Below are positions 2,161-15,759 of a stretch of DNA of 15,759 bases, piece after piece. How positions within the stretch are numbered: the stretch's first letter is position 1; each line of letters opens with the position of its first letter. This DNA is from Planctomycetaceae bacterium (GTDB taxonomy: Bacteria; Planctomycetota; Phycisphaerae; Phycisphaerales; SM1A02): positions 1 to 15,759 of the forward strand of contig CANHFL010000002.1 in assembly GCA_947459855.1 (NCBI GenBank), written 5' to 3'. Under the pieces are notes generated by a model. The model worked only from the letters and a program-made list of their open reading frames with translations. It had not been told where the DNA came from and did no database searches. Position numbers and translations under genes: made by a program.

Positions 2161-5100
2161 TCAGAACGGGATGTTCAGCCCGATCTGACCGCCGTACTGC
2201 TGCGAGTCGGTCATGAACAGGCCGTTGAACGACGCGTAGGCGGTCAGGCCGCTGGGCATCGCCCATTCGAGGCCGGCCTCGAGCGAGCCGCCGTAACGGG
2301 ACTCGGGATCGTTGAACACCGTGAACCCGGGCAGGCCGCTGAAGGAGTTCGTTGCCGTGGTCGACCAGTCGCCCAGCGGCACCAGCGCGGTGAATCCGCC
2401 GCCGACGTAGGGCGTCAGGACGGATCCGCCCATGCGCATGCCGTGCATGACCCGGGCACCGGCCGATGGCTGGATCGAATAAGCCTGCTGGTTGCCGACG
2501 GTCAGGTTCGCGCTGCCCGCGCCCGACTCGGTGTAGCCCTCGCGGTTGAACATCCCGAAGAAGGCGCGGGCGTACGGCTGGAGGTAAGTGTCGCCGCCAA
2601 GCCACATGTTCAGGCCGGTCTCGCCGCCCGCGGCGAGGCCCCACTGGTTGTTGCTCGAGTTCGCGACGCGGACGACGCCCGGCACGTACAGCGTGCGCGA
2701 GCGGTCGACCATGCCGAACTGCCCGACCGCGGAACCCTCGACGTACCAGCGGCCCTTGCCGGGCACCCAGCTGCCGTAGACGCCGAAGTCCGCGCCGTTG
2801 AGGTTGTTCGACTCGTCGACCAGGCCGGTCGTGATGTCGACCGAACCGGGCGCGTAGCCGACGAACCCGCCCAGGATCGCGCCGTTGCCCAGGTACGTGT
2901 CGGCACCGAGCATCGCGCCGCCGGAGACGACCGAGTACTGCGACTGCGCCCACGTGTCGTTCGTGACGTTCGCGGTGTAGCCGAAGCCGCGGGTCCAGAC
3001 GCGCGAGGCGATGTCGGGCGTCGCGCCGTTGAGCTCGGCGCCGAAGGGCCGTGACGCACGCAGGACGCCCTGCTGCGGACCCTGGCCGGAGGCGGCCTGC
3101 GCGGTGCCGGCCGGACCGTCGGGCGGCAGCAGGCCGCTGCGCAGCTGCATGAGGCGCTTCATCGCGACGTCACCGGCCTGGAACAGCTGTCCCATGGTCG
3201 CGTTCGGCATCGCATAGGGGTTCGCGAGCGTCGAGACCGCGACAGTCGCGCTGGCGTACGGACCGGCGGAGTTCAGAAGCAGCTGCGTGCCGACGTACTC
3301 GACGTCCGCCGAGGATGCGGGGTCCGTGATCAGCGCGTTCATCGCCACCACGGATGCGTTGATCTGCGAGTTCTGCACGATGCCGATGTTGGCGTTGCGG
3401 CGTACGGTGCCCGAGCCGTAAGGCACGTCCACGACGACGTTCGTGCTGGTGGTCCCGGGCCCCAGCGGATCCGGGCCGGGGAAGCCGGTGATGGTGAGCG
3501 AGAAGTCGTTCGCGCCGTAGACGACCTCGAAGACGCCGCCCAGGAAGCGGGTGCCGTTCGCCTGGTCGATGGTGCGCGACGTCTCGATGCCGGTGAGCGG
3601 GTCGACCGTCACGAAGTTCACGGTGCCGAACGTGCCGCCCAGGCCGCCTGCGGCCAAGACGACCTGGTAGGTCGTGGTCGCGCCGGCCGCCGGGATCAGG
3701 GTGCCGGTGTAGAAGTCCTGGTCGTAGTAGAGCTTCGCGGTCGCGCCCCCCGCCTGCACCGCGCCCGTGGCGACGAGCTTGTCGGCGACGCCGGCGTCGT
3801 CGATGAGGTAGGAGCGCAGCGTCGCGCCGGCCGCCAGGTTGGCCGCCCCGGCGACGTTCAGGACCGAGAGCGCCGAGTCCCCGCGGTCGCCCACGGAGAG
3901 GGTGCCGTTGAAGTCGCGCGCGACGCCGATCGAGGCGAGCGTGCCGACGCCGGAGATGGTGAGGGAACCGGCCGCGGCACCGGCCGAGCCCGAGACCGCC
4001 GCGTTGGAGAGGACCGCGCCGTCCAGGATGAGCGACGCGCCGTCCGTCAGCGTGATGCTTCCGTCGAAGCTCGACGCCGCGCCGTCGCCGACGGTGAACG
4101 CGACCCTGCCCAGCGTCAGGTCCGCGCCCGCACCGGCGCTGTTCAGGCCGCCGGCCGCGCCCAGCGTGCGCGAGGCCGCGCTGCCCGTGAGGGTCGCGGT
4201 GCCGTCGACCAGCAGGTCCGCGGTTCCCGCCAGCGCGGCGTTCGCGCCCAGCGTCACCTGGGCACCGCCTCCGACGGTGAGGCCTGCGGTACCGAAGGAC
4301 GCCGCGGTCGAGATGCTGCCGTCGATGCCGTCGACGACCGTGCGGCCCGTGAACGAGCCGGACGTGAAGGCGAGGTTGAAGGTGCCGGTGCCCGCGACGC
4401 CGTTCGACAGCTTGATGTCGCCGGTGCCGGCCACCGCGCCGGTGAAGGCGAGGTTGCCGGCGCCGGACAGCGTGACCGCGGCGGTGCCGGTGCCGACCGT
4501 GACGTCGGCGGCCGTCGTGGCGTTCCCGGCGCCCGAGTAGTCGAGCGAGGTCGCCGCGCCGTCGGCGTTCATGCCCAGCGCGTCCAGCCCGCCGATCCAG
4601 GCGGCGCTGGCGACGGTCGCGGCGGAACCGCCGCGCAGCTGGAGGCCGCCGGTGAAGGTCGCGCCGGCGCCGGCGCCGACGGAGAGGTCGACGTTGTCAA
4701 GCACCAGCGTGCCCGCGCCCGACACGGCGCCGTTCAGCGTCAGGCCGCCGGCGCCCGTGGCCTTGATGGTTGCGGTGCCGGTGCCGACGTCGAGCGTCGC
4801 GCCGGAGGTGACGTCGGGCGCGCCCGAGTACTCGAACGACGTTGCCGTGCCGTCGCCGCCGAAGGACAGCGTGGTGATCGCGGCGAGCCAGGTGTCGTTG
4901 GCGCTGGTGACCGTGGACGTGTCGCGCAGGATGAGTCCGCCCGTGAAGGCGCCCGTGGCGCCGGCCCCGACGGTGAGGTCGATGTTCGCCAGCTGGAGCG
5001 TGCCGGTGCCCTGCATGTCGCCGTCGACCGTGAGCGCGGTGCCCGTGCCGGCGGTGACGTTGGTCAGGCCGTCGAGCCGCAGCTGCTGCCCGGCGCCCAG

Positions 5101-6558
5101 CGTGAGGTCCGTGTTCAGCGTGACGTCGGCCCCGTCGTTCAGGTCCAGGCCCAGCGCGCCGATCGATGCCGCCGTGCCGATGCCGACCTTCGCGCCGTCG
5201 ATCACGGTGCGGCCATCGAAGCCGCCGCCCGTGAAGGCCAGGTTGATCGTTCCGGTGGCGCCGGCGTTCGAGGTGATCACCAGGTTGCCGACCGTGCCGG
5301 GGGCCTGGGCGACCGTGCCGCCCAGCGTGAGGTTGCCGGTCGCGCCGGCGCCGTTCAGCGAGATGCCGTTGTTGCCCTCGCCCAGGGTGAGCGTGCCCGC
5401 GAACGTCGCCGCGGCGCTGCCCGTGTAGGCGAAGGACGTCACCAGGCCATCGGCGTTCATCGTGAGCCCGCCGAGCTGGCCGACCCACGCCGCGTTGCCG
5501 GTGCTCACGGTGGATCCGCCCTGAAGAGAGACGGACCCCGTGTACGTCGAGGTGGAGCCGCCGACGACGAGCGCGGTGTTCGAGAGCGCCAGGCTGCCGC
5601 TGCCCTGCATCTCGCCGTTCACCGTGAGGGTCGATGCCAGGCCGCCGCTGCCGGTGAAGCTGTTGGTGCCGTTCAGGGAGAACGTCTGGGCGCCGCCGAT
5701 CAGCAGGTTGGTGTTCGACGTGACGGTCGCGGTCTGCATCGTCAGTCCCTGCGAGCCGATCGAGGCCTGCGTGTTTATCGCGGCGGTCGCGCCGTCGATG
5801 ATCGTCCGGCCCGTGAATCCGCCCGTGAGCGCCAGGGTGACGGCCGCCGTGGAACCGCCTTCCGTGCCGATCAGCAGGTTGCCCGTGCCGGAGACCGCGC
5901 CGGAGAGCGTCAGGTTGCCCGCCCCGGCGCCGCTCGTGAGGATCGCGGAGGTGTTGCCGCCCGAGAGCGACAGCGCTCCGGCGTAGTTGACGTCGACGGT
6001 GCCGGCGTAGATCAGCGACGCGGGGTCGGCCGGCACCAGGTAGTTGCCGGCCAGCTGGATCGACGTCGCGTTCTGCAGCCAGCGCTCGTCGATGATCGCC
6101 AGCGAACCGGTGGACTGCACGTCGAGCGTTCCGTTGAAGCCGACGAGGAACGAGTTCGATCCCAGCGTGAGCGAGCCGTTGGTGACGCCGATCGAGCACG
6201 TGCCGGTCGCGGTGTTCGTCGTGCCCCCACCCGGCGCGATGGTGAGGAAGCCGCCGTTCATGTCGAACACGCCGATGGCGTTGCTCATCGTCCACGAGCC
6301 GTTGTAGATGCCGCCGCCCGTGACGGTCAGCGTGCCGGCGGTTCCGTCACCCTGCGTGAAGTCGAGGTTCGCGCCGATCGAGCCGGCGTCGGCGACCACT
6401 TCGCTCGTGCCGCCTGCCACGACGACGTCCGCGCGCGCCGCGGCCGCCGGGAACAGGACAAGCACGGCGGCGGGAATGGCCCAACCACCGGCAGCGAGCG
6501 CGGTGCGGGCACGCGAGGCGACGAAGCAGCGCGGGGCAGTCGGGTCTGGACGCAGCAT
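2161..6558 (-). CDS. Large autotransporter with repetitive beta-helix-like passenger and C-terminal outer-membrane barrel
   Basis: A 1465-aa type V secretion protein. An Arg-containing, hydrophobic signal peptide (residues 1-43, PAAVLVLFPAAAARA, AxA cleavage before DVVVAGG) would send it through Sec. Residues 44 to about 1080 form a Gly/Ala/Thr/Ser/Asn-rich passenger with repeated short strands (GNLTLSG, TLTVDG types), typical of a right-handed beta-helix. Two recurring modules occur (A at 248, 447, 736; B at 339, 538, 635). After a linker with a Pro/Gly/Thr stretch, an autotransporter barrel begins near residue 1180 (SRVWTRGFGY) and runs to the terminal Phe (QIGLNIPF), about 285 aa, a normal barrel length. 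The start at 6558 is chosen because AAAGGAG (6570-6564) lies 5 nt upstream and the signal peptide begins there; the open frame extends upstream to 6681 but overlaps the pgl end. No protease or lipase catalytic motif was recognised, so adhesion or surface-display is inference. Confidence 0.88.
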   Translation of the reverse strand: MLRPDPTAPRCFVASRARTALAAGGWAIPAAVLVLFPAAAARADVVVAGGTSEVVADAGSIGANLDFTQGDGTAGTLTVTGGGIYNGSWTMSNAIGVFDMNGGFLTIAPGGGTTNTATGTCSIGVTNGSLTLGSNSFLVGFNGTLDVQSTGSLAIIDERWLQNATSIQLAGNYLVPADPASLIYAGTVDVNYAGALSLSGGNTSAILTSGAGAGNLTLSGAVSGTGNLLIGTEGGSTAAVTLALTGGFTGRTIIDGATAAINTQASIGSQGLTMQTATVTSNTNLLIGGAQTFSLNGTNSFTGSGGLASTLTVNGEMQGSGSLALSNTALVVGGSTSTYTGSVSLQGGSTVSTGNAAWVGQLGGLTMNADGLVTSFAYTGSAAATFAGTLTLGEGNNGISLNGAGATGNLTLGGTVAQAPGTVGNLVITSNAGATGTINLAFTGGGFDGRTVIDGAKVGIGTAASIGALGLDLNDGADVTLNTDLTLGAGQQLRLDGLTNVTAGTGTALTVDGDMQGTGTLQLANIDLTVGAGATGAFTGGLILRDTSTVTSANDTWLAAITTLSFGGDGTATSFEYSGAPDVTSGATLDVGTGTATIKATGAGGLTLNGAVSGAGTLVLDNVDLSVGAGAGATFTGGLQLRGGSAATVASAAWIGGLDALGMNADGAATSLDYSGAGNATTAADVTVGTGTAAVTLSGAGNLAFTGAVAGTGDIKLSNGVAGTGTFNLAFTSGSFTGRTVVDGIDGSISTAASFGTAGLTVGGGAQVTLGANAALAGTADLLVDGTATLTGSAASRTLGAAGGLNSAGAGADLTLGRVAFTVGDGAASSFDGSITLTDGASLILDGAVLSNAAVSGSAGAAAGSLTISGVGTLASIGVARDFNGTLSVGDRGDSALSVLNVAGAANLAAGATLRSYLIDDAGVADKLVATGAVQAGGATAKLYYDQDFYTGTLIPAAGATTTYQVVLAAGGLGGTFGTVNFVTVDPLTGIETSRTIDQANGTRFLGGVFEVVYGANDFSLTITGFPGPDPLGPGTTSTNVVVDVPYGSGTVRRNANIGIVQNSQINASVVAMNALITDPASSADVEYVGTQLLLNSAGPYASATVAVSTLANPYAMPNATMGQLFQAGDVAMKRLMQLRSGLLPPDGPAGTAQAASGQGPQQGVLRASRPFGAELNGATPDIASRVWTRGFGYTANVTNDTWAQSQYSVVSGGAMLGADTYLGNGAILGGFVGYAPGSVDITTGLVDESNNLNGADFGVYGSWVPGKGRWYVEGSAVGQFGMVDRSRTLYVPGVVRVANSSNNQWGLAAGGETGLNMWLGGDTYLQPYARAFFGMFNREGYTESGAGSANLTVGNQQAYSIQPSAGARVMHGMRMGGSVLTPYVGGGFTALVPLGDWSTTATNSFSGLPGFTVFNDPESRYGGSLEAGLEWAMPSGLTAYASFNGLFMTDSQQYGGQIGLNIPF
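4279..5817 (-). repeat. Modular A-B-A-B-B-A repeats of about 100 codons inside the autotransporter passenger
   Basis: Module A reads F(T/D)GRT(V/I)(V/I)DG...I.T.AS(I/F)G..GL and occurs at 5743-5817, 5146-5220 and 4279-4353 (residues 248, 447, 736). Module B reads (F/Y)TG...L...S....(N/S)..W...L..L.....G..TS..Y(S/T)G and occurs at 5419-5544, 4822-4947 and 4531-4656 (residues 339, 538, 635). A1 to A2 and B1 to B2 are both exactly 199 residues apart, and A to B is 91 residues in both pairs, so an A-B block was duplicated as one 597-bp unit. B3 then follows 97 residues after B2, and A3 101 residues after B3. Confidence 0.8.
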
Positions 6559-6644
6559 GGCATCTCCTTTGTCGGCGAAAGCCGGGGCGAAACTTCGCCA
6601 AGGACCGGAAACCCCCGGCCGAAACCACGGCGCGGCCGGAAATC
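6559..6644 (-). promoter_or_regulatory. pgl-autotransporter spacer with a strong Shine-Dalgarno and a small hairpin
   Basis: The 86-bp gap follows the pgl stop. AAAGGAG at 6570-6564, 5 nt before the autotransporter ATG, is the strongest ribosome binding site in the window and fixes the start. GGCGAA (6586-6591) pairs with TTCGCC (6594-6599) as a short hairpin upstream of it. CCGGAAA/CCGAAA-type short repeats fill the rest. I do not see a clear -10/-35 pair, so the gene may be read through from pgl or from an unrecognised promoter. Confidence 0.5.
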
Positions 6645-8557: not shown

Positions 8558-8646
8558 ACGGGGTGTACCGGGTTCACATGCCCGTTGCCCGCGTTGCCAC
8601 CTGCTTTGGGCGGGTGGACCCGGTCGACACGGTTAACCGGGTTCCG
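8545..8646. repeat. Double-hairpin imperfect inverted repeat at the trpS / membrane-operon convergence; probable bidirectional terminator
   Basis: The outer arms (8545-8577 and 8614-8646) match as reverse complements at about 27 of 33 positions. The left arm alone folds as a perfect 10-bp stem (8547-8556 with 8566-8575, 9-nt loop) that contains the trpS TAA. The right arm alone pairs ACCCGGT (8618-8624) with ACCGGGT (8636-8642) and includes the palindrome CGGTTAACCG. CCACC (8597-8601) and GGTGG (8613-8617) could add a central hairpin. It ends 2 bp before the stop codon of the convergent minus-strand gene. This resembles a REP/BIME-type element; a terminator role for both convergent operons is inferred. 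Confidence 0.75.
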
Positions 8647-8648
8647 TC

Positions 8649-9764
8649 CTAATGCCTCTTCGTCGGGTCGATCAGCCATAGCCAGTCGTCGAAGAGGAAC
8701 TCGAAGCGCGCGGCGAGCAGCGCGATGCGGCCCATCACGGTGAACCCGAAGCTCGCGCCGAAGGTGATCATCAGGTACCAGATGCCGACCTTCGCGGTGC
8801 GGCCCAGCACGCCCTTGTGCTCGGCGGAGAAGAAGAAGTACGCCAGCACGCTCAGCACGCCGACGAAGATGAGGATCGCCGAGAGCGACGAGCCGATCGT
8901 CGCCGGCCAGTCGACCGGGGCCGTCGCGGGGTCGCCCGGCAGGTGCTGCACCACGATCAGCGGCTGCGCCATCGTCGCCACCTGCGCGACCAGGTCGGCG
9001 TTCACGACCTCGACGAACTTCAGCCCGGCGAACGTCCCGACGATGAAGGCCAGCGGGAAGACACCCAGCCATCCGGCCTTGGACGACAGGCGGCTGAGCA
9101 GCATGACGCCCAGCAACAGAGAGACAAGCGCACCCGCGACCTCCATCGTCCCGATCGAACCCACGTCGAACGCCGGCATCAGCGTCGATGCCGTGAAGCC
9201 GGGCGCGAGCGGCCCCACCAGCTTCGGCACCAGCGTGTCCCACACGCTGACGATCATCCAGTACCCGGCGCTCACGCCCACGACGACCGATTCGGCCAGC
9301 TTGTAGACCGGGTTGTCCCGCCACAGGAAGCTCAGCACCGCGAGCGTCAGCAGCGCGCCGATCCACACGCCCGCGGTGCGCGGCCAGCTGACCACGATCG
9401 ACTCCTGCGAGGAGTCCTCCATGCTTGCGGCGGCCCACTCCGTGGCGCTCGATTCCTTCCAGTCGGTCCACGCGAACTGCGGCACCTGGCCCGGCGCGGG
9501 CGCGACCCACTGGGCCTCGGCAGGCTTGCCTTCGGTGCCCGCCGCGGCCGGCGCGCGCACGAACGCCTGGTCGGCGCGCTCGACGTACACCAGGCCGTAG
9601 CCATGGACGCGGCGCGCGGCCTCGCCCTCGCCGACCTCGGTGCCGACCCAGCCGCGCACCACCAGCAGCGCGCCGACGAACGCCAGCACGGCGATGAGCA
9701 TGCGCTGCGCGCGGCGCTCGACCGCGGGATCGCGCGTCCCCTGCACGTCACCGCCCTGGCTCAT
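8649..9764 (-). CDS. Polytopic membrane protein of unknown function, last gene of the DUF6754 operon
   Basis: I do not recognise a named family for this 371-aa protein. It has one N-terminal TM segment (22-38), then a roughly 90-residue soluble loop rich in Ala, Trp and acidic residues (40-128), then six hydrophobic segments near 130-147, 157-178, 207-226, 232-253, 289-312 and 324-350, ending with a Trp/Phe-rich amphipathic stretch (FEFLFDDWLWLI). No transporter signature, nucleotide-binding loop or metal-binding cluster was seen. The ATG at 9764 overlaps the previous gene's TGA in an ATGA, and a purine-rich GGGAAGGGGG lies just upstream, so translation is probably coupled. The open frame continues further upstream to 10577 but that extension only shadows the neighbouring gene. 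The stop TAG at 8651-8649 lies beside a strong inverted repeat. It is likely the integral core of a membrane complex with its three neighbours. Confidence 0.78.
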   Translation of the reverse strand: MSQGGDVQGTRDPAVERRAQRMLIAVLAFVGALLVVRGWVGTEVGEGEAARRVHGYGLVYVERADQAFVRAPAAAGTEGKPAEAQWVAPAPGQVPQFAWTDWKESSATEWAAASMEDSSQESIVVSWPRTAGVWIGALLTLAVLSFLWRDNPVYKLAESVVVGVSAGYWMIVSVWDTLVPKLVGPLAPGFTASTLMPAFDVGSIGTMEVAGALVSLLLGVMLLSRLSSKAGWLGVFPLAFIVGTFAGLKFVEVVNADLVAQVATMAQPLIVVQHLPGDPATAPVDWPATIGSSLSAILIFVGVLSVLAYFFFSAEHKGVLGRTAKVGIWYLMITFGASFGFTVMGRIALLAARFEFLFDDWLWLIDPTKRH

Positions 9765-10678
9765 GCCCGCGCCCCCTTCCCGCGCCCGAACAGGAAGATC
9801 ACGTTGCCGACCAGTATCAGCCCGACCATCAGCACGTGCGCGAAGAGCTGCGGCGCCATCCGGCGCTGCGCCTCCTGGTACTTGGCGGGCACCGGCTTCG
9901 ACGCGTCGGTGCCGCGCGCGGCGTCGTTCACGAGCGTCTCGTACTCCGCGGCGCCCTTGATCGCGCCGAGGATTCCGGCCATCTGGTGGGGGTAATAGGG
10001 GATCAGCTGCGGGGTCTGGACGCCGGTCGTGCCGGTGATGAACGGCAGGGGCTTCTCGCTGGTGAGCGTCGGCGACACGGCATACTGCACCCACTCCTTG
10101 GAGCCGGGATAACCGGCGCTGATGCTGATCAGCAGGTCGAAGTCCGACGACCGGGCGACCCCCTGCATCATCGGGATGCGCGCGACCGGCGTGCCGCGCG
10201 AGTCGTTCGGGTACGTCTGCGCCATGTCGGCGCCCATCTGCTTGATGACGCCCTCGTTGCCGGACTGGAACCCCAGGTCGACCCACGTCTCGCCGTAGCG
10301 GTACCACGGGTCGTCCGCGATCACGTCGTTGAGCGTCGCCCCGATGATCGGGCTGCCCGGCGCCCACAGCGTCATGCCGTAGATGCGCAGCCTGCGCATC
10401 GCGCAGTGGTGGACGAAGGCCGTCGCCATCGGCTGCAGCTCGCCGGCGCTGGCGGGGTCGAAGTCGAAGCTGATGAGCACGCGGCTGCCCTCGGGCAGGC
10501 GGTCGATCGCGTCGAACGCGCCGCGCACGGCGGGCGTGGGCGTCTCGGGGAACGTCTTCCCGGTCACGCCGACCCACAGGATCGGGCCCGCGACGGCCAG
10601 CGCCATCAGCAGGAAGATCCAGCGGCGGTCGATGCCGTCGAGGCGCTGGAGCAGGGGCTTCGCGGGTGCGCCGGACAT
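9761..10678 (-). CDS. Bitopic membrane protein with a large domain between two TM anchors, unknown function
   Basis: A 305-aa protein with TM segments at 20-38 and 278-297 and about 235 residues between them, which topology suggests lie outside the cytoplasm. The domain opens with a beta-alpha pattern, SRVLISFDFDPASAGELQPM (65-84), then LRIYGMTLWAPGSP (97-110), FDLLISISAGYPG (180-192) and LPFITGTTGVQTPQLIPYYP (211-230). This looks like a Rossmann-like alpha/beta fold, but I cannot name the family. The acidic FDFDP segment and the GTTGVQ loop are the best candidates for a functional site; both are inference. The ATG at 10678 follows the previous TGA by one base (TGACATG) and its own TGA overlaps the next ATG. 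It is a fixed part of the four-gene membrane operon. Confidence 0.77.
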   Translation of the reverse strand: MSGAPAKPLLQRLDGIDRRWIFLLMALAVAGPILWVGVTGKTFPETPTPAVRGAFDAIDRLPEGSRVLISFDFDPASAGELQPMATAFVHHCAMRRLRIYGMTLWAPGSPIIGATLNDVIADDPWYRYGETWVDLGFQSGNEGVIKQMGADMAQTYPNDSRGTPVARIPMMQGVARSSDFDLLISISAGYPGSKEWVQYAVSPTLTSEKPLPFITGTTGVQTPQLIPYYPHQMAGILGAIKGAAEYETLVNDAARGTDASKPVPAKYQEAQRRMAPQLFAHVLMVGLILVGNVIFLFGRGKGARA

Positions 10679-10679
10679 G

Positions 10680-11384
10680 TCAGTCGCCGCTCCCCAGGTA
10701 GCTGCGGTCCATGCCCACCAGGATCTTCAGGCTGGTGGCCGCGATGCCGATCGCGATGCCGATGATCATCGCGCGCGTGCCGGCGTTGTTGAACACGCTC
10801 ATGATGATGTTGCTGAGGTTCTCGAGCCGCAGCCACGAGACCCAGCCGTTGTCGGCCGGGATCCAGCTGGTGAGCAGCACGCCCACGTACACGCGTCCCA
10901 GCAGCACGATGAACGCGGTGCCCAGCAGCAGGACGGCCGCGGCGTTCTTCGCGCGGAAGGCGCGGAACGCCGCGCTGGCCACGTAGAACGCCAGCAGCGC
11001 GAAGAGCGTGCTGGTGATCGGGCTCATCGCGTATTCGTAGAGCCACCAGAAGGCGCCGCCGACCGCTTCCTTGTTGCCGGAGAGCGCGACGTCGGGGAAC
11101 TTCGGGTCGGGATGGACGCCGATCTTGAACGCGCCCACGGTGATCATCACCAGGAACGCCAGGATCGTGACGGCCGAGTAGCCCCAGCCCTCCTCGCGCG
11201 CGCTGATCTTCAGCAGGTTGACCTTCAGCAGGTTCGCGCCGCCCAGGACGAAGGCGATCGCCGCGAGCACGTTGAACCAGTCGACCACCGCGGTGCCGAG
11301 CGGCTCCCACGGCTTCACGAACGCCGTGAGCACCATCACGAGGCCGGCAAGCGACGCGACCAGCGCGGCGACGGTGCGGCTCAT
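10680..11384 (-). CDS. Six-TM membrane protein of unknown function, DUF6754 operon
   Basis: A 234-aa, mostly hydrophobic protein with predicted TM segments near 5-23, 35-55, 69-89, 121-143, 148-171 and 203-223. Charged loops lie between them (KVNLLKISAREEGWG 54-68; RAFRAKN 141-147). No enzyme motif is visible. A soluble loop of about 30 residues (KIGVHPDPKFPDVALSGNKE, 87-106) separates the two halves. I chose the ATG at 11384 because it follows the upstream stop as TGACATG, the same spacing seen at the next gene boundary; an in-frame ATG eight codons upstream (11408) would overlap the DUF6754 gene. It is probably one of the integral subunits of the putative complex encoded by the operon. Confidence 0.78.
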   Translation of the reverse strand: MSRTVAALVASLAGLVMVLTAFVKPWEPLGTAVVDWFNVLAAIAFVLGGANLLKVNLLKISAREEGWGYSAVTILAFLVMITVGAFKIGVHPDPKFPDVALSGNKEAVGGAFWWLYEYAMSPITSTLFALLAFYVASAAFRAFRAKNAAAVLLLGTAFIVLLGRVYVGVLLTSWIPADNGWVSWLRLENLSNIIMSVFNNAGTRAMIIGIAIGIAATSLKILVGMDRSYLGSGD

Positions 11385-11385
11385 G

Positions 11386-12243
11386 TCAGCCACCCCCCAT
11401 CGCGGCACGGACCGCGTCGACCAGGCCGGAGAGCGACTCGGAGTGCGTGAGCGCCGCGACCGTCGCGGCCAGCGCGAGCAGCACGGCCAGCACCCACACG
11501 ATCGCCTTCACGATGTCCTGCGCGAGCAGCGTGCCGAGCTGGTCGGGCTCGCCGCTCAGGTAGGCGCTTGCGGCGAAGAACTCCTCGCCCAGCAGCGTGT
11601 AGTCGCAGCTTGCGACGAAGAACGGGAGCTGGCTGGTCTCGGCGGTGCCGGCGATCTGGATCGCGCCGACCGAGTTGCCGTTCTCGGCCAGGATGAGGCT
11701 CTCCGCGAAGAAGCAGCCGAAGTAGAAGCAGGCGGCGGGCTTGCGGCGCACCATCAGGCCGCCGGCATAGGCGACGTACGCGAACTGCTCGTCGCTGACG
11801 TAGTAGATGCGGTCGGGGTTGTAGCTGTCGCTGCGGCCGGCGCCCAGGTACGCGGCGTGCACGGCCTCGCGGGCGCTCGTCATGACCAGCGAGCGCGTGC
11901 AGGGAACCTCGATCTCGGCGTCGTACTCGGCGGCGGTGCGCGCGACGCGGCTCAGCACGGTGATGCCCGCCACCGTCTGGATGTTGTCCATGTCCTGGAT
12001 GCCCGGGACGAAGAGCATCGGGCGGCCCATCTCCGTCGCGCGGCCGACGGCTTCGTCGACGGCGTCGAGGCCGGCGATGCGCCGGATGCGCACGCGGCCG
12101 CCGCTGCGCGCCCACAGGATCGACCCGATCACGAGCGCCGCGACGACGAAGAGCGATGCGGCCAGCACGCCCTTGCCGGGCGTGAAGAACGTGGCGGGAT
12201 TCTCGGCCCCGGCGACCTGCGCCAGGAGGCTCGGGAGGGGCAT
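11386..12243 (-). CDS. DUF6754 domain membrane protein
   Basis: A 285-aa protein with one TM segment near each end (25-44, VLAASLFVVAALVIGSILWA; 243-265, DIVKAIVWVLAVLLALAATVAA) and a soluble core between. The core starts VRIRRIAGLDAVDEAVGRATEMGRP (51-75), followed by MLFVPGIQDMDNIQTVAGITVLSRVA (76-101), YYVSDEQFAYVAYAGGLMVRRKPAACFYFGCFFAES (147-182) and IQIAGTAETSQLPFFVASCDYTLLGEE (196-221). I recognise this pattern as DUF6754, a family without assigned function; that recognition is from memory of the family and not a search. The clustered Cys172, Cys177 and Cys213 may be structural or metal-related (inference). It is the first gene of the four-gene membrane operon and starts about 26 bp after a stem-loop; TACAAC (12258-12253) is a possible weak -10 box 9 nt before the ATG. 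Confidence 0.8.
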   Translation of the reverse strand: MPLPSLLAQVAGAENPATFFTPGKGVLAASLFVVAALVIGSILWARSGGRVRIRRIAGLDAVDEAVGRATEMGRPMLFVPGIQDMDNIQTVAGITVLSRVARTAAEYDAEIEVPCTRSLVMTSAREAVHAAYLGAGRSDSYNPDRIYYVSDEQFAYVAYAGGLMVRRKPAACFYFGCFFAESLILAENGNSVGAIQIAGTAETSQLPFFVASCDYTLLGEEFFAASAYLSGEPDQLGTLLAQDIVKAIVWVLAVLLALAATVAALTHSESLSGLVDAVRAAMGGG

Positions 12244-12328
12244 GCGCTGCGTGTTGTACGCGAAATCACGCCCCGCTTCACTTGCCGATCCGTCGTCGGA
12301 AATCGGTGACTGGAGCGGGGCGCGCTTC
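12244..12328 (-). terminator. Stem-loop between the MutL/KOW gene pair and the DUF6754 operon
   Basis: CGCCCCGCT (12269-12277) pairs perfectly with AGCGGGGCG (12314-12322). The pairing extends inward with mismatches to CCGAT (12285-12289) / ATCGG (12301-12305), about 17 of 21 positions, around an 11-nt apex. It lies just after the stop of the upstream minus-strand gene. No T-tract follows on the minus strand, so this may be a partial terminator, an RNA-stability element, or a boundary that sets different levels for the two halves of the cluster. A weak TACAAC box lies between it and the DUF6754 ATG. Confidence 0.45.
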
Positions 12329-13465
12329 CTACCCCTCGATCAGCTCCACGTTCGCGCGCGGCACGGTGATGCGACGGCCGTCCGGCATCGACACCTCGAG
12401 CACGCGGGCCTTGCTGCCGGAGCCCAGCACCGCGGGCTGCTCGGGCAGCGCGGCCACCGTGCCCAGGACGCCGAAGTGCGGATCGCGGATCACGCGCACG
12501 GGCGTACCGATCTCCAGCACCCCAGCCACCGCGCCGCCGGCCGCCGCGCTCTCGCCGGCGCCGCCGCGGCCGTCCTCCAGCGGGATCACGATTTCCGGCC
12601 GCATCACGCCGGCGCGGATCTGCGTCGCGCCGTTGACGCTCGCCATCCGCCCCGCGTGGCCGCCGAGCAGCGCGAACGTGCGCTGGGCCATCGCGATGTC
12701 GCCGAAGCCCTCGGTAACGATGATCGTGATGCCGAGCTTCTCGCTCCCCGTCACCGCCACGCCGATGTCGTGACCCAGGAAGTCGCGCAGGTCCTGGTCG
12801 TCGATGCCGCCCGAGACGATCGCCGCGGCGCCCACCGCCTTCGCCTTGCGGATCGCCCCCGCCGTCATGCGCGCGCCGCCCACGACGATCGCGTCCTTCA
12901 TCGCGGGCGTCACGTGCTTCTCGTCCAGCGTCTCGCCGGCGGCCGCGCAGGCCATGGCCAGCAGGCCGTGCGTCTCGCCGCCCACGCCGAAGATGCCCTG
13001 CACCAGCGCGACCGCGTTCTCCACCACGACGCCCTCGCTTGGCAGCACCTCGACCACGTCGCCCGCGATGTACGCGCGCACCGCCACGGGCTGCGCCGGG
13101 CCGCGCACGATGACCATGCCTGTCGAGTCGCTCACGCTCTCGAGCGTCCCGTCGGCCGAGCTCTTCACGTCGGTGCGCATCATGCCGAAGATGCCCTTCG
13201 AGCGCGCGATCGGCATGTCCTTCGTCACGCGTTCGCCGACCTTCACCAGCATCAGCGACGGCAGGTCCTTCGGGTTCGCGCCCATCAGGTTGGCCGCGCG
13301 GATCGGGAACGCGTCGCCCTCCATGAACGTCTGCGCGACCACCGCGTCGGCGCCGACGCGGTCTCCCACCTTCACGACGACGTCGCCCGCGATGGGCAGC
13401 ACGCGCCGCGCGCGGTAGCCGGTGCGCGCGCTGACCTTGAGTCCGGGGGTGAATGCCTTTGCCAT
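12329..13465 (-). CDS. Barrel-sandwich/KOW-like protein paired with the MutL-type ATPase, unknown function
   Basis: A 378-aa soluble protein with no named family that I recognise. Residues 20-165 look like barrel-sandwich-hybrid (lipoyl/RnfC-like) strands: LPIAGDVVVKVGDRVGAD (23-40), LVKVGERVTKDMPIA (73-87), GTLESVSDSTGMVIV (106-120), then PVAVRAYIAGDVVEVLPSEG (126-145). No biotinyl/lipoyl Lys site is evident. A middle alpha/beta part follows (KDAIVVGGARMTAGAIRKAK 190-209; GAAAIVSGGIDD 212-223; LGITIIVTEGFGD 244-256). The C-terminus (319-376) is KOW/SH3-like: GTPVRVIRDPHFGVLGTVAALP, then ARVLEVSMPDGRRITVPRANVELIE. The ATG at 13465 has GAGGAA upstream, overlapping the MutL-like gene's stop (gap of 10 bp), so the two are probably co-expressed at related levels. 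No TM or signal sequence. Adaptor or scaffold for the ATPase is inference. Confidence 0.75.
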   Translation of the reverse strand: MAKAFTPGLKVSARTGYRARRVLPIAGDVVVKVGDRVGADAVVAQTFMEGDAFPIRAANLMGANPKDLPSLMLVKVGERVTKDMPIARSKGIFGMMRTDVKSSADGTLESVSDSTGMVIVRGPAQPVAVRAYIAGDVVEVLPSEGVVVENAVALVQGIFGVGGETHGLLAMACAAAGETLDEKHVTPAMKDAIVVGGARMTAGAIRKAKAVGAAAIVSGGIDDQDLRDFLGHDIGVAVTGSEKLGITIIVTEGFGDIAMAQRTFALLGGHAGRMASVNGATQIRAGVMRPEIVIPLEDGRGGAGESAAAGGAVAGVLEIGTPVRVIRDPHFGVLGTVAALPEQPAVLGSGSKARVLEVSMPDGRRITVPRANVELIEG

Positions 13466-13475
13466 GGTTCGTTCC

Positions 13476-15302
13476 TCACTCGTACACGCTCAGCGCGTCC
13501 AGCCAACGCTGGATGGTGGCGCGGCGTGCGCCCTCTTCCCCGGGCACCTCGATCGCGCGGCCGCGCGCGTCCAGGATCAGGCCCACGGTGCCGCCGCGCA
13601 CGGTGCGCGTGACGGCCTTGCCGGGCCCGGCCCCCATGTCGAAGCCCTTCTCGGGCGTCACGGTCATCTCGCACTGCGCGTCGTGCGCCAGGGGCACCAG
13701 CTGCATGTCGCCGACGTTCATCGTGCCCTTCGCGTTCACCGCGCCGCGCAGCTCCCACGCGAAGCACGGCTTGCCGGCCTTGCCTTGGCCCCGCGGCGCG
13801 ACGCAGGTGCCCAGGTAGATCAGGCAGTCCTTCTCGAAGACCTCCATCGCGGCGTCGGGGTGCACGCTCGCCAGCACGCCCAGGTGCGGCATCATGAAGA
13901 TGCTGTCCTTCGCCAGCTCGGTGAAGCCCTCGGGTTCGAAGCTGTCGATGAGCATGAGCGCGGTCTGCTCCATGCGCGGCGCGTGGCTGAGAACGCCGCC
14001 CGACGCGACCAGCAGGTCGAGCTTCATGTTGTCGACCAGCGTCGCGCCGGCGGCGGCCTGCGAGAAGGCGTCGCCCACCGTGCGCTGCTGCTGCACGCCC
14101 TTCAGCGTGGTGGCGAACGCCTTGTGCTGCTCGTAGCTCAGGCGCAGCGCCTCGCGCGCGACCGCCTGCTCGAAGACCAGCGCCTCCAGCGTCTGCGGGA
14201 TCGTGGTCGGGCGGATCATCTTGTTCTTGACTCGGTTGCGCAGCTCGCGCTCGTCCATGGGCAGGTGCACCCAGCGCAGGATGCGCGGCATCGTCGCCTC
14301 GGCGCACACGTTGCTGATGCTGTAGCTCATGCCCAGGTTCGCGCTGACGGTGCGGTTGAAGGCGCCGTCGAAGACGCTGAAGACGTCGGTGGTGGCGCCG
14401 CCGATGTCCACGCCCACCGCGTTGATGCCGCGCTTCCGGGCGATCGTCTGCAGGATGTCGCCCACCGCGCCGGGCGTCGGCATGATGGGCGCGTCGGCCC
14501 ACGCGATCAGCTTGTCGTAGCCGGGCGCATGCGCCATGACGTGCTCCAGGAAGACGTCGTGGATGCGGTCGCGCGCGGGGCCCAGGTTCTCCTGCTCGAG
14601 CGTGGGGCGCAGGTTGGGCACGACGCTCAGGTCGAAGCCCTGGCCGAAGACGCGCTGCACCGCCGGCGCGGCATCCTTGTTGCCGGCGAAGATCACGGGC
14701 AACTGGTACTCGCCGCCGAAGCGCGGGCGCGGCTTCGCGGGCGCGATCAGCTCGGCAAGCTCGACCACCTTCTTCTGGTCGCCGCCGTCGGTGCCGCCCG
14801 AGAGCAGCACCATGTCGGGCCGCAGCTCGCGGATGCGCTGGATCTGCTCGTAAGGCTTGCGCTGGTCGTTCGAAGCGATCGTGTCCATGACGATCGCACC
14901 CGCGCCCAGGGCCGCGCGCTTGGCGCTCTCGGCCGTCATCTGCCGCACGACGCCCGCGACCATCATCTGCAGGCCGCCGCCCGCGCTCGAGGTCGAGATG
15001 TAGACGTCGCAGCCGTCCGGGTCGGTCGGCGACGTGCGCCGGATCACCGTGCCGTCGTCGGCGATCAGCCGGCGGCCCGAGAGCTCCTGCAGCTCGGTCA
15101 CGGAATTGGTCACGCCCAGCGTCACGTCGGCGAAAGGTTCCTCGACCGTCGTCGGCGCCTCGCCGCGCTGCGTCTGCCGGTAGTGCCCGTCGACGCACTC
15201 GATCAGGATCGCCTTCGTCGTGGTCGATCCGCAGTCGGTGGCGACGATGACCTGGATGCGGTCGGGCGGGGGTGGGGACTTCGCGGCGTGCGGGAGGCTC
15301 AT
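13476..15302 (-). CDS. MutL/GlmL-family ASKHA ATPase, extended, not adjacent to a glutamate mutase
   Basis: This is the family annotated as glutamate mutase accessory protein MutL/GlmL, actin/Hsp70-like (ASKHA) ATPases thought to reactivate or chaperone B12-dependent mutases; it is unrelated to the mismatch-repair MutL. The 608-aa protein shows phosphate-1 motif ATDCGSTTTKAILIE (21-35), GGTDGGDQKK (169-178), phosphate-2 motif VDIGGATTDVFSV (298-310) and adenosine motif LLVASGGVL (430-438), in order. Classical GlmL proteins are about 460 aa; here residues beyond about 500 form an extra C-terminal part (VNAKGTMNVGDMQLVPLAHD 522-541, then GTVGLILDARGRAIEVPGEEGAR). The ATG at 15302 is the natural start; TAACCT (15318-15313) lies 10 nt upstream as a possible -10 box. 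No mutase, aminomutase or methyltransferase is encoded nearby, and its partners here are the KOW-like protein and membrane genes. Confidence 0.85.
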   Translation of the reverse strand: MSLPHAAKSPPPPDRIQVIVATDCGSTTTKAILIECVDGHYRQTQRGEAPTTVEEPFADVTLGVTNSVTELQELSGRRLIADDGTVIRRTSPTDPDGCDVYISTSSAGGGLQMMVAGVVRQMTAESAKRAALGAGAIVMDTIASNDQRKPYEQIQRIRELRPDMVLLSGGTDGGDQKKVVELAELIAPAKPRPRFGGEYQLPVIFAGNKDAAPAVQRVFGQGFDLSVVPNLRPTLEQENLGPARDRIHDVFLEHVMAHAPGYDKLIAWADAPIMPTPGAVGDILQTIARKRGINAVGVDIGGATTDVFSVFDGAFNRTVSANLGMSYSISNVCAEATMPRILRWVHLPMDERELRNRVKNKMIRPTTIPQTLEALVFEQAVAREALRLSYEQHKAFATTLKGVQQQRTVGDAFSQAAAGATLVDNMKLDLLVASGGVLSHAPRMEQTALMLIDSFEPEGFTELAKDSIFMMPHLGVLASVHPDAAMEVFEKDCLIYLGTCVAPRGQGKAGKPCFAWELRGAVNAKGTMNVGDMQLVPLAHDAQCEMTVTPEKGFDMGAGPGKAVTRTVRGGTVGLILDARGRAIEVPGEEGARRATIQRWLDALSVYE

Positions 15303-15348: not shown

Positions 15349-15759
15349 TCACGCGCCGGTCGCGGTGTCCCGCTGCAACTCCCCCACCACCCACGCCACG
15401 CTCCCGCGCCGCTCCAGGTACTTCGCCAGCGTCGCGTAGCGCACCGGGTCCAGCACGGCGGTCGCGATCGGCTGCATGAAGTGGAGCGCCTGCGCGCCGA
15501 CGTTGTTGAGCGGCGCGACGCTCTCGAGGAACAGCACCGCGGGGCCGACGAGGCCGCGCTTGCGGACTTCGCGCAGGAGCGGCTCGAGGGCGGCGCGTTC
15601 CTCGGGGGTGGGTTCGGCGGGGCCGGGCTTCTCGACGGCGAAGGCGTGGCGCAGCTGCGCGCGCCAGCCGCGCGGGGGCTGGGGCGGCGCGGGGTGCGCC
15701 GGCGCGGGGTCCTGCCGCGGTGACGACGCCCGTTCGCCGGGGTTTCCTTCTGGCGTGCC
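15349..15759 (-). CDS. Small protein of unknown function, N-terminus beyond the window edge
   Basis: The minus-strand frame is open from the right edge to the TGA at 15351-15349, giving 136 visible residues. The first roughly 50 are Pro/Ala/Gln-rich and look like a disordered linker (PAPAHPAPPQPP). The rest is a compact, more conserved-looking segment: a charged helix (ERAALEPLLREVRKRGLVGP), then VLFLESVAPLNNVGAQALHF, MQPIATAVLDPVRYATLAKYLERRGSVAWVVGELQRD. There is no clear TM helix, although VGPAVLFLESVAPL is hydrophobic. I do not recognise a named family. It is on the same strand as the ATPase gene, 46 bp upstream, and may be part of the same unit. A GTG at 15537 would give only 62 aa and would leave out the preceding helix, so a start further upstream is more likely. 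Confidence 0.6.
   Translation of the reverse strand, partial: GTPEGNPGERASSPRQDPAPAHPAPPQPPRGWRAQLRHAFAVEKPGPAEPTPEERAALEPLLREVRKRGLVGPAVLFLESVAPLNNVGAQALHFMQPIATAVLDPVRYATLAKYLERRGSVAWVVGELQRDTATGA

Follow-up and report, generated by a model that had tools for sequence, protein, structure and literature searches.

In group II ECF transporters, one shared ATP-using unit serves many membrane modules. The family PF13941, like the models NF040745 and NF040744, covers the GlmL/MutL protein that serves glutamate mutase and ornithine aminomutase as an accessory, and the description of another family, DUF6754 (PF20539), gives no function. Members of PF13941 and of DUF6754 occur together in six consecutive genes, A to F, that we analyzed in a stretch of 15,759 nucleotides (the window) that makes up contig CANHFL010000002.1 of a Planctomycetaceae bacterium, whose genome is 69.7% complete. 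The genes, picked by length of open reading frame without a gene finder, all lie open on the minus strand. They encode an ASKHA ATPase, a soluble partner and four membrane proteins within the span given in the original prediction. That prediction also proposed that A and B join the membrane proteins C to F in an undescribed membrane complex, which is supported by their order and co-occurrence across genomes. The set is new as a system, although its ATPase fold is known. In the literature searched, outside which most subscription journals lie, no paper names DUF6754 and none describes the MutL/GlmL ATPase family in this membrane role.

Gene A (13476-15302) encodes the ATPase, of the MutL family and 608 residues long. 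It scored 433.8 bits against PF13941 (Pfam cut-off 27), with the whole MutL profile covered by residues 19-493 and about 115 residues beyond the match. The motifs DCGSTTTK and DIGGATTD, which we take to be the nucleotide-binding motifs, are present in A and conserved across its homologues. Gene B (12329-13465) has no predicted helix; it combines a barrel-sandwich hybrid-like part with a KOW/SH3-like C-terminal part. This domain assignment, proposed earlier, agrees with weak matches among 30 homologues at E ≤ 1, of which 26 matched Biotin_lipoyl, 17 RnfC_N and 8 KOW. B itself reached 21.1 bits against RnfC_N, under the cut-off of 25.6. The conserved modified lysine of biotin/lipoyl carriers was not found in the barrel-sandwich domain across 30 aligned rows, its place being judged by eye; at the likely position the window B reads GMMRTD, and the other rows have K or other residues.

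The four membrane proteins follow after a gap of 85 bases between B and C, and B and C are therefore not translationally coupled. Gene C (11386-12243) scored 369 bits against DUF6754 (cut-off 27) and, together with the score of A, confirms both family identities that had been proposed. A simple hydropathy scan placed two helices in C, six in the polytopic protein D (10680-11384), two in E (9761-10678) and five in the polytopic protein F (8649-9764), as expected for C, D and F. E had been described as bitopic; the scan and the structure model instead place a helix at each end of a Rossmann-like domain of about 220 residues, which probably lies outside the cell. C has the same helix-domain-helix arrangement, with its Rossmann-like domain probably inside. 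The predicted local distance difference test (pLDDT) score was 92.7 for the model of C and 95.7 for that of E. The N-terminal part of C is longer in other lineages, and Fn3 (PF00041) is precomputed for some of these. D has a conserved FRAR stretch, and the first ~125 residues of F are not part of the portion that distant homologues have in common with it. No Pfam match over cut-off was obtained for D, E or F. The junctions C/D and D/E both read TGACATG, and at E/F the start of F overlaps the stop of E (ATGA), so that all three spacings noted previously are present in the sequence. Past F, a short intergenic stretch (8560-8648) contains repeated GGGT/ACCC-like words, seen by eye.

The unit does not begin at 15302, where it had been thought to start. 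A conserved gene, G (15349-15759, minus strand), lies 46 bases upstream of A, its 5' end cut where the contig stops at 15759. It encodes a small protein with no predicted helix and no Pfam match over cut-off (128.9 bits in our hidden Markov model search). Homologues of G were found at 34 loci besides the window and stand upstream of A in all except L103, a metagenome-assembled genome titled Actinomycetota, in which G is directly upstream of C; at L049, G is ~6 kb away.

The arrangement is widely conserved. An exact-pattern scan of named genomes with C gave 80 loci, the best of 92. Gene order was tallied over all loci collected in the analysis, some of which overlap, so that the tally may include a few genes twice. 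Of 119 C genes whose run did not touch a locus edge, 108 stood in the order C-D-E-F, with CDEF (57) and GABCDEF (25) as the most frequent runs. A was followed by B in 58 of 77 cases. By title, the 80 loci are mostly from Planctomycetota, with others from Zixibacteria, Latescibacterota, Cloacimonadota, Calditrichaeota, WOR-3/Stahlbacteria, Bacillota and one Actinomycetota; these phylum names were taken from the titles of the records, and some of them are plainly wrong (one close relative is titled Chitinophaga). Anammox bacteria are among the C matches. The lineages Brocadiaceae (f48) and Planctomycetaceae (f30) are assigned from the names of close protein matches. In the window's class, C was found in 20 of 198 genomes, including 11/11 of the window's family; in the sampled genomes of three sister families (f2, f3, f4) it had no match.

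The two halves of the set also occur apart. G-A-B and C-D-E-F stand at separate loci in G088, which is anammox-type by its protein relatives, and at L077 and L078 three tandem C-D-E-F modules adjoin a divergent B-A pair. Fused paralogues of A and B occur at L113:7310-9817 and L114:7275-9749, as proteins of 824 and 835 residues, with no C-D-E-F within the stretch read. A secreted-looking protein of ~260 residues is encoded between A and B at L078:2832-3632, L085:6505-7269 and L090:4668-5450; the L078 copy had no Pfam match. Near the B-A pair, genes at L077:1-1048 and L090:1-1030 resemble ExbD and ExbB by eye.

Co-occurrence was strong across 294 genomes of the window's phylum. C was found in 76 of them and E in 77; the figures for B and PF13941 were 72 and 86. 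All 76 C-positive genomes also had E, while 71 had A and 68 had B; each of the pairs A-B, A-C and B-C gave p < 1e-45 (Fisher, with related genomes treated as independent). Homologues routinely lying far apart without co-occurring would have counted against the proposed complex; here the association holds even where the genes are dispersed, as in G024 and G283, each a genome in one contig, in which A, B-C and E are all present ~0.5 to 3 Mb apart. Similarly, A and B were found in 17/17 genomes picked from named C loci, even where they do not adjoin C, these genomes having been chosen for C.

The same data bear on whether A is a GlmL-type reactivase of a B12 mutase that by chance adjoins a membrane operon. 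A does belong to PF13941, but it falls below all three NCBIfam GlmL cut-offs (235.5 against 475 for NF040745, 207.2 against 600 for NF040744 and 172.1 against 204.05 for TIGR01319), and it co-occurs with B and C more strongly than an accidental neighbor would be expected to, in tests that treat related genomes as independent. Glutamate mutase (PF06368) was not found in the window's incomplete genome. It was over cut-off in 4 of 274 phylum genomes, all four with MutL and none with C; this draw need not include all 76 C-positive genomes, and the search was confined to this one B12 mutase. In G306, a cluster resembling ornithine aminomutase by eye has a shorter MutL and no B. The identity of A as a glutamate mutase reactivase is thus contradicted, A appears from these searches not to act with glutamate mutase in this phylum, and we regard a chance-placed reactivase as highly improbable.

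In one Bacillota class, that of G308, C-D-E-F modules have multiplied. Among its 101 genomes, C was found in 40, E in 41 and B in 47. The copy numbers of C and E were closely correlated in the 41 genomes that have at least one of the two (r = 0.993, or 0.989 when G304 is left out), and they were equal in 30 of these genomes; G304 has at least 23 C and at least 25 E, and G563 has 14 of each. The subunits changed together: over 121 modules the distance correlations among C, D, E and F were 0.88-0.93, compared with at most 0.18 in permutations, and within G563 alone they were 0.53-0.73, a level reached in 0/500 permutations. The modules have therefore diverged as units. Among within-genome paralogues, C was clearly the most conserved subunit in 4/4 genomes (0.44-0.48), D and F were intermediate (0.35-0.40), and E was slightly the least conserved (0.34-0.375). 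Such a ranking would follow if E encountered a variety of substrates and the partner of C were a common one.

B behaves differently from the modules. A B match at E ≤ 1e-3 was present in 40/40 C-positive genomes of this class, and genomes with more C tended weakly to have more B matches (Spearman 0.38, p 0.014). In 40 genomes, counted by eye, a single B match exceeded 460 bits, and 35 of these genomes are C-positive; the remaining 5 C-positive genomes have weaker or partial B only. Scattered modules in many copies beside one high-scoring B make the A-B pair look trans-acting and shared by many modules. These pointers to a trans-acting pair, like gene G, had been overlooked in the original prediction, although the complex it proposed stands.

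It had also overlooked a second association of such pairs. Diverged Bacillota pairs, A'-B', lie in line with genes for an FtsX permease and an ABC ATPase, confirmed by Pfam at two loci, with an FtsX-like gene in 9 of 20 further loci. A same-strand FtsX-type permease was found within 3 kb of 10 of 26 Bacillota B' genes, or 8 of 23 when L200 and L208 are left out, since the FtsX queries came from these two loci and both count by construction. The corresponding figures were 0/40 for Bacillota C, 0/4 for high-scoring Bacillota B, only four of which could be checked, and 0/61 for high-scoring B overall. A'-B' paralogues stand beside FtsX-type ABC transporter genes at L200, L208, L257, L258, L259, L260, L263, L266, L268, L269 and L274; four of these loci (L208, L257, L258, L259) seem to belong to a single lineage. 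Such pairs thus accompany membrane machines in two or more contexts, A'-B' beside ABC transporters and A-B beside C-D-E-F.

These settings are compatible with more than one role. A-B could use ATP to assemble large membrane complexes or to control their quality; it would then load, reset or repair C-D-E-F as reactivases do soluble enzymes, the client having a non-transport activity such as sensing or an envelope role. The named relatives in PF13941 are, by their family names, mutase accessory proteins; the ABC transporters beside the A'-B' pairs come with an ATPase of their own; and G304 has its one high-scoring B beside at least 23 C. On the other hand, B accompanies C in 40/40 genomes of the Bacillota class, a stricter link than expected of a chaperone, and the many diverged copies resemble substrate diversification. 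We consider this role a serious contender, though on balance unlikely. A cell-envelope force or scaffold machine was also considered, with A-B as an actin-like partner such as FtsA or PilM, which act in division or pili. The ASKHA nature of A, the Fn3-like part on C in some lineages and the FtsX-type permeases beside A'-B' would suit it. However, A has no Pfam match to the PilM or FtsA families at E values up to 1, no envelope gene recurs beside the set across lineages as judged by eye, and neither the many divergent Bacillota copies nor the absence of a match in sampled sister families f2-f4 is readily reconciled with it, which leaves this machine improbable.

Transport is the best single reading, closely followed by the assembly or reactivation role for A-B. 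We propose, tentatively and at somewhat below even odds, that C-D-E-F makes up a new transport complex of the membrane, with A-B remodelling or powering it. The four proteins would assemble as a single unit in which D and F supply most of the helices. One Rossmann-like domain, that of C, would lie in the cytoplasm and another, that of E, outside the cell, and the assembly would most likely carry a substrate across the membrane. A would hydrolyse ATP in the cytoplasm and, together with B and with G as a link, would dock from the cytoplasmic side, with C as the probable docking site. The docked pair would activate, reset or power the membrane proteins. A bolder version, in which the set founds a superfamily of primary transporters with an ASKHA (Hsp70/actin-type) ATPase and a barrel-sandwich partner in place of a P-loop ATPase, and one shared unit drives many substrate-specific four-subunit modules, seems a long shot at present.

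The genes next to the modules offer a further hint. Around 47 Bacillota C modules, 20 same-strand genes lie within 200 bases and 18 were scanned. Ten are amide or peptide hydrolases (four Beta-lactamase2, two amidohydrolases, a creatininase, an M24, a gamma-glutamyltranspeptidase and an M23) and two are RpiR or IclR regulators, which are the usual company of a transporter. The Beta-lactamase2 (PF13354) serine hydrolases stand directly in line with C-D-E-F at L221, L246, L247 and L254.

Several points weigh against transport driven by a shared A-B unit. The list of tight neighbors has no matched background and concerns at most 20 of the 47 modules; a wider census found no enrichment (amidohydrolases 9/136 near versus 5/123 far, p = 0.42), and the recurring neighbors in Planctomycetota are lineage-specific and housekeeping-like, with no functional hint. 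No transporter fold or motif was recognized in D or F. In 8 of the 76 C-positive phylum genomes no B was seen, and four of these genomes (G037, G050, G099 and G263) are 90-95% complete, the others (G014, G145, G222 and G292) being less than 90% complete; conversely, A and B occur in G153, a genome rated 99% complete, although C and E are missing from it. Weaker B' paralogues are also present in the Bacillota genomes, so that a single A-B need not be shared there. Because the ABC transporters adjoining A'-B' have their own ATPase, A-B need not energise its partners.

The Rossmann-like folds of C and E could, moreover, equally bind nucleotide. C-D-E-F might then be a membrane enzyme or an ion channel governed by nucleotide at the inner domain of C, in the manner of transhydrogenase domain III or an RCK-gated channel. 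Rossmann-type arrangements are common, though, and Foldseek gave no match under E 1e-3, whether to a nucleotide domain of the transhydrogenase domain III, RCK or Sir2 type or to any other; by eye, C has no GxGxxG motif and the helices of D and F have few conserved charged residues. We judge this reading unlikely, if less so than the superfamily of primary transporters described above.

Elsewhere in the window, positions 2161-6561 encode a large, repetitive autotransporter whose beta-domain is matched over its full length (PF03797, E 3e-39), the genome being Planctomycete-like.

With four families (D to G) lacking a Pfam match over cut-off and C of unassigned function, the locus represents a conserved system built around a known type of ATPase. 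The MutL-type family would gain a membrane role apart from B12 mutases, being seen beside two kinds of membrane complex, and if A does power transport, ATP would here drive a transporter that has no P-loop engine. The proposal may be testable in genetically tractable Planctomycetota such as Planctopirus limnophila, for which a transposon library is described in a study of its essential genes (PMC10632474), if that species carries the genes.

Compared with known systems, the set matches none as a whole: profile searches of A-F gave no match to a known transporter or respiratory complex, as had been anticipated. A differs from GlmL/MutL, whose ATPase domain family and motifs it has, in its length of ~600 residues, its C-terminal extension, its partner B and its failure at the three NCBIfam cut-offs. 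The barrel-sandwich part of B is weakly like RnfC_N and NQRA_N of RnfC and NqrA, but no further Rnf or Nqr subunit was matched in the set. MacB/FtsX-type ABC transporters adjoin the A'-B' paralogues, whereas A-F had no Pfam match to ABC_tran, FtsX, the ECF ATPase or EcfT. C is a full member of DUF6754. In the way the set may work, a parallel with group II ECF transporters is possible, since the copy-number pattern fits a shared unit with many scattered, diverged modules; the present set differs from them in having no matched P-loop ATPase or ECF component and in its module of four subunits.
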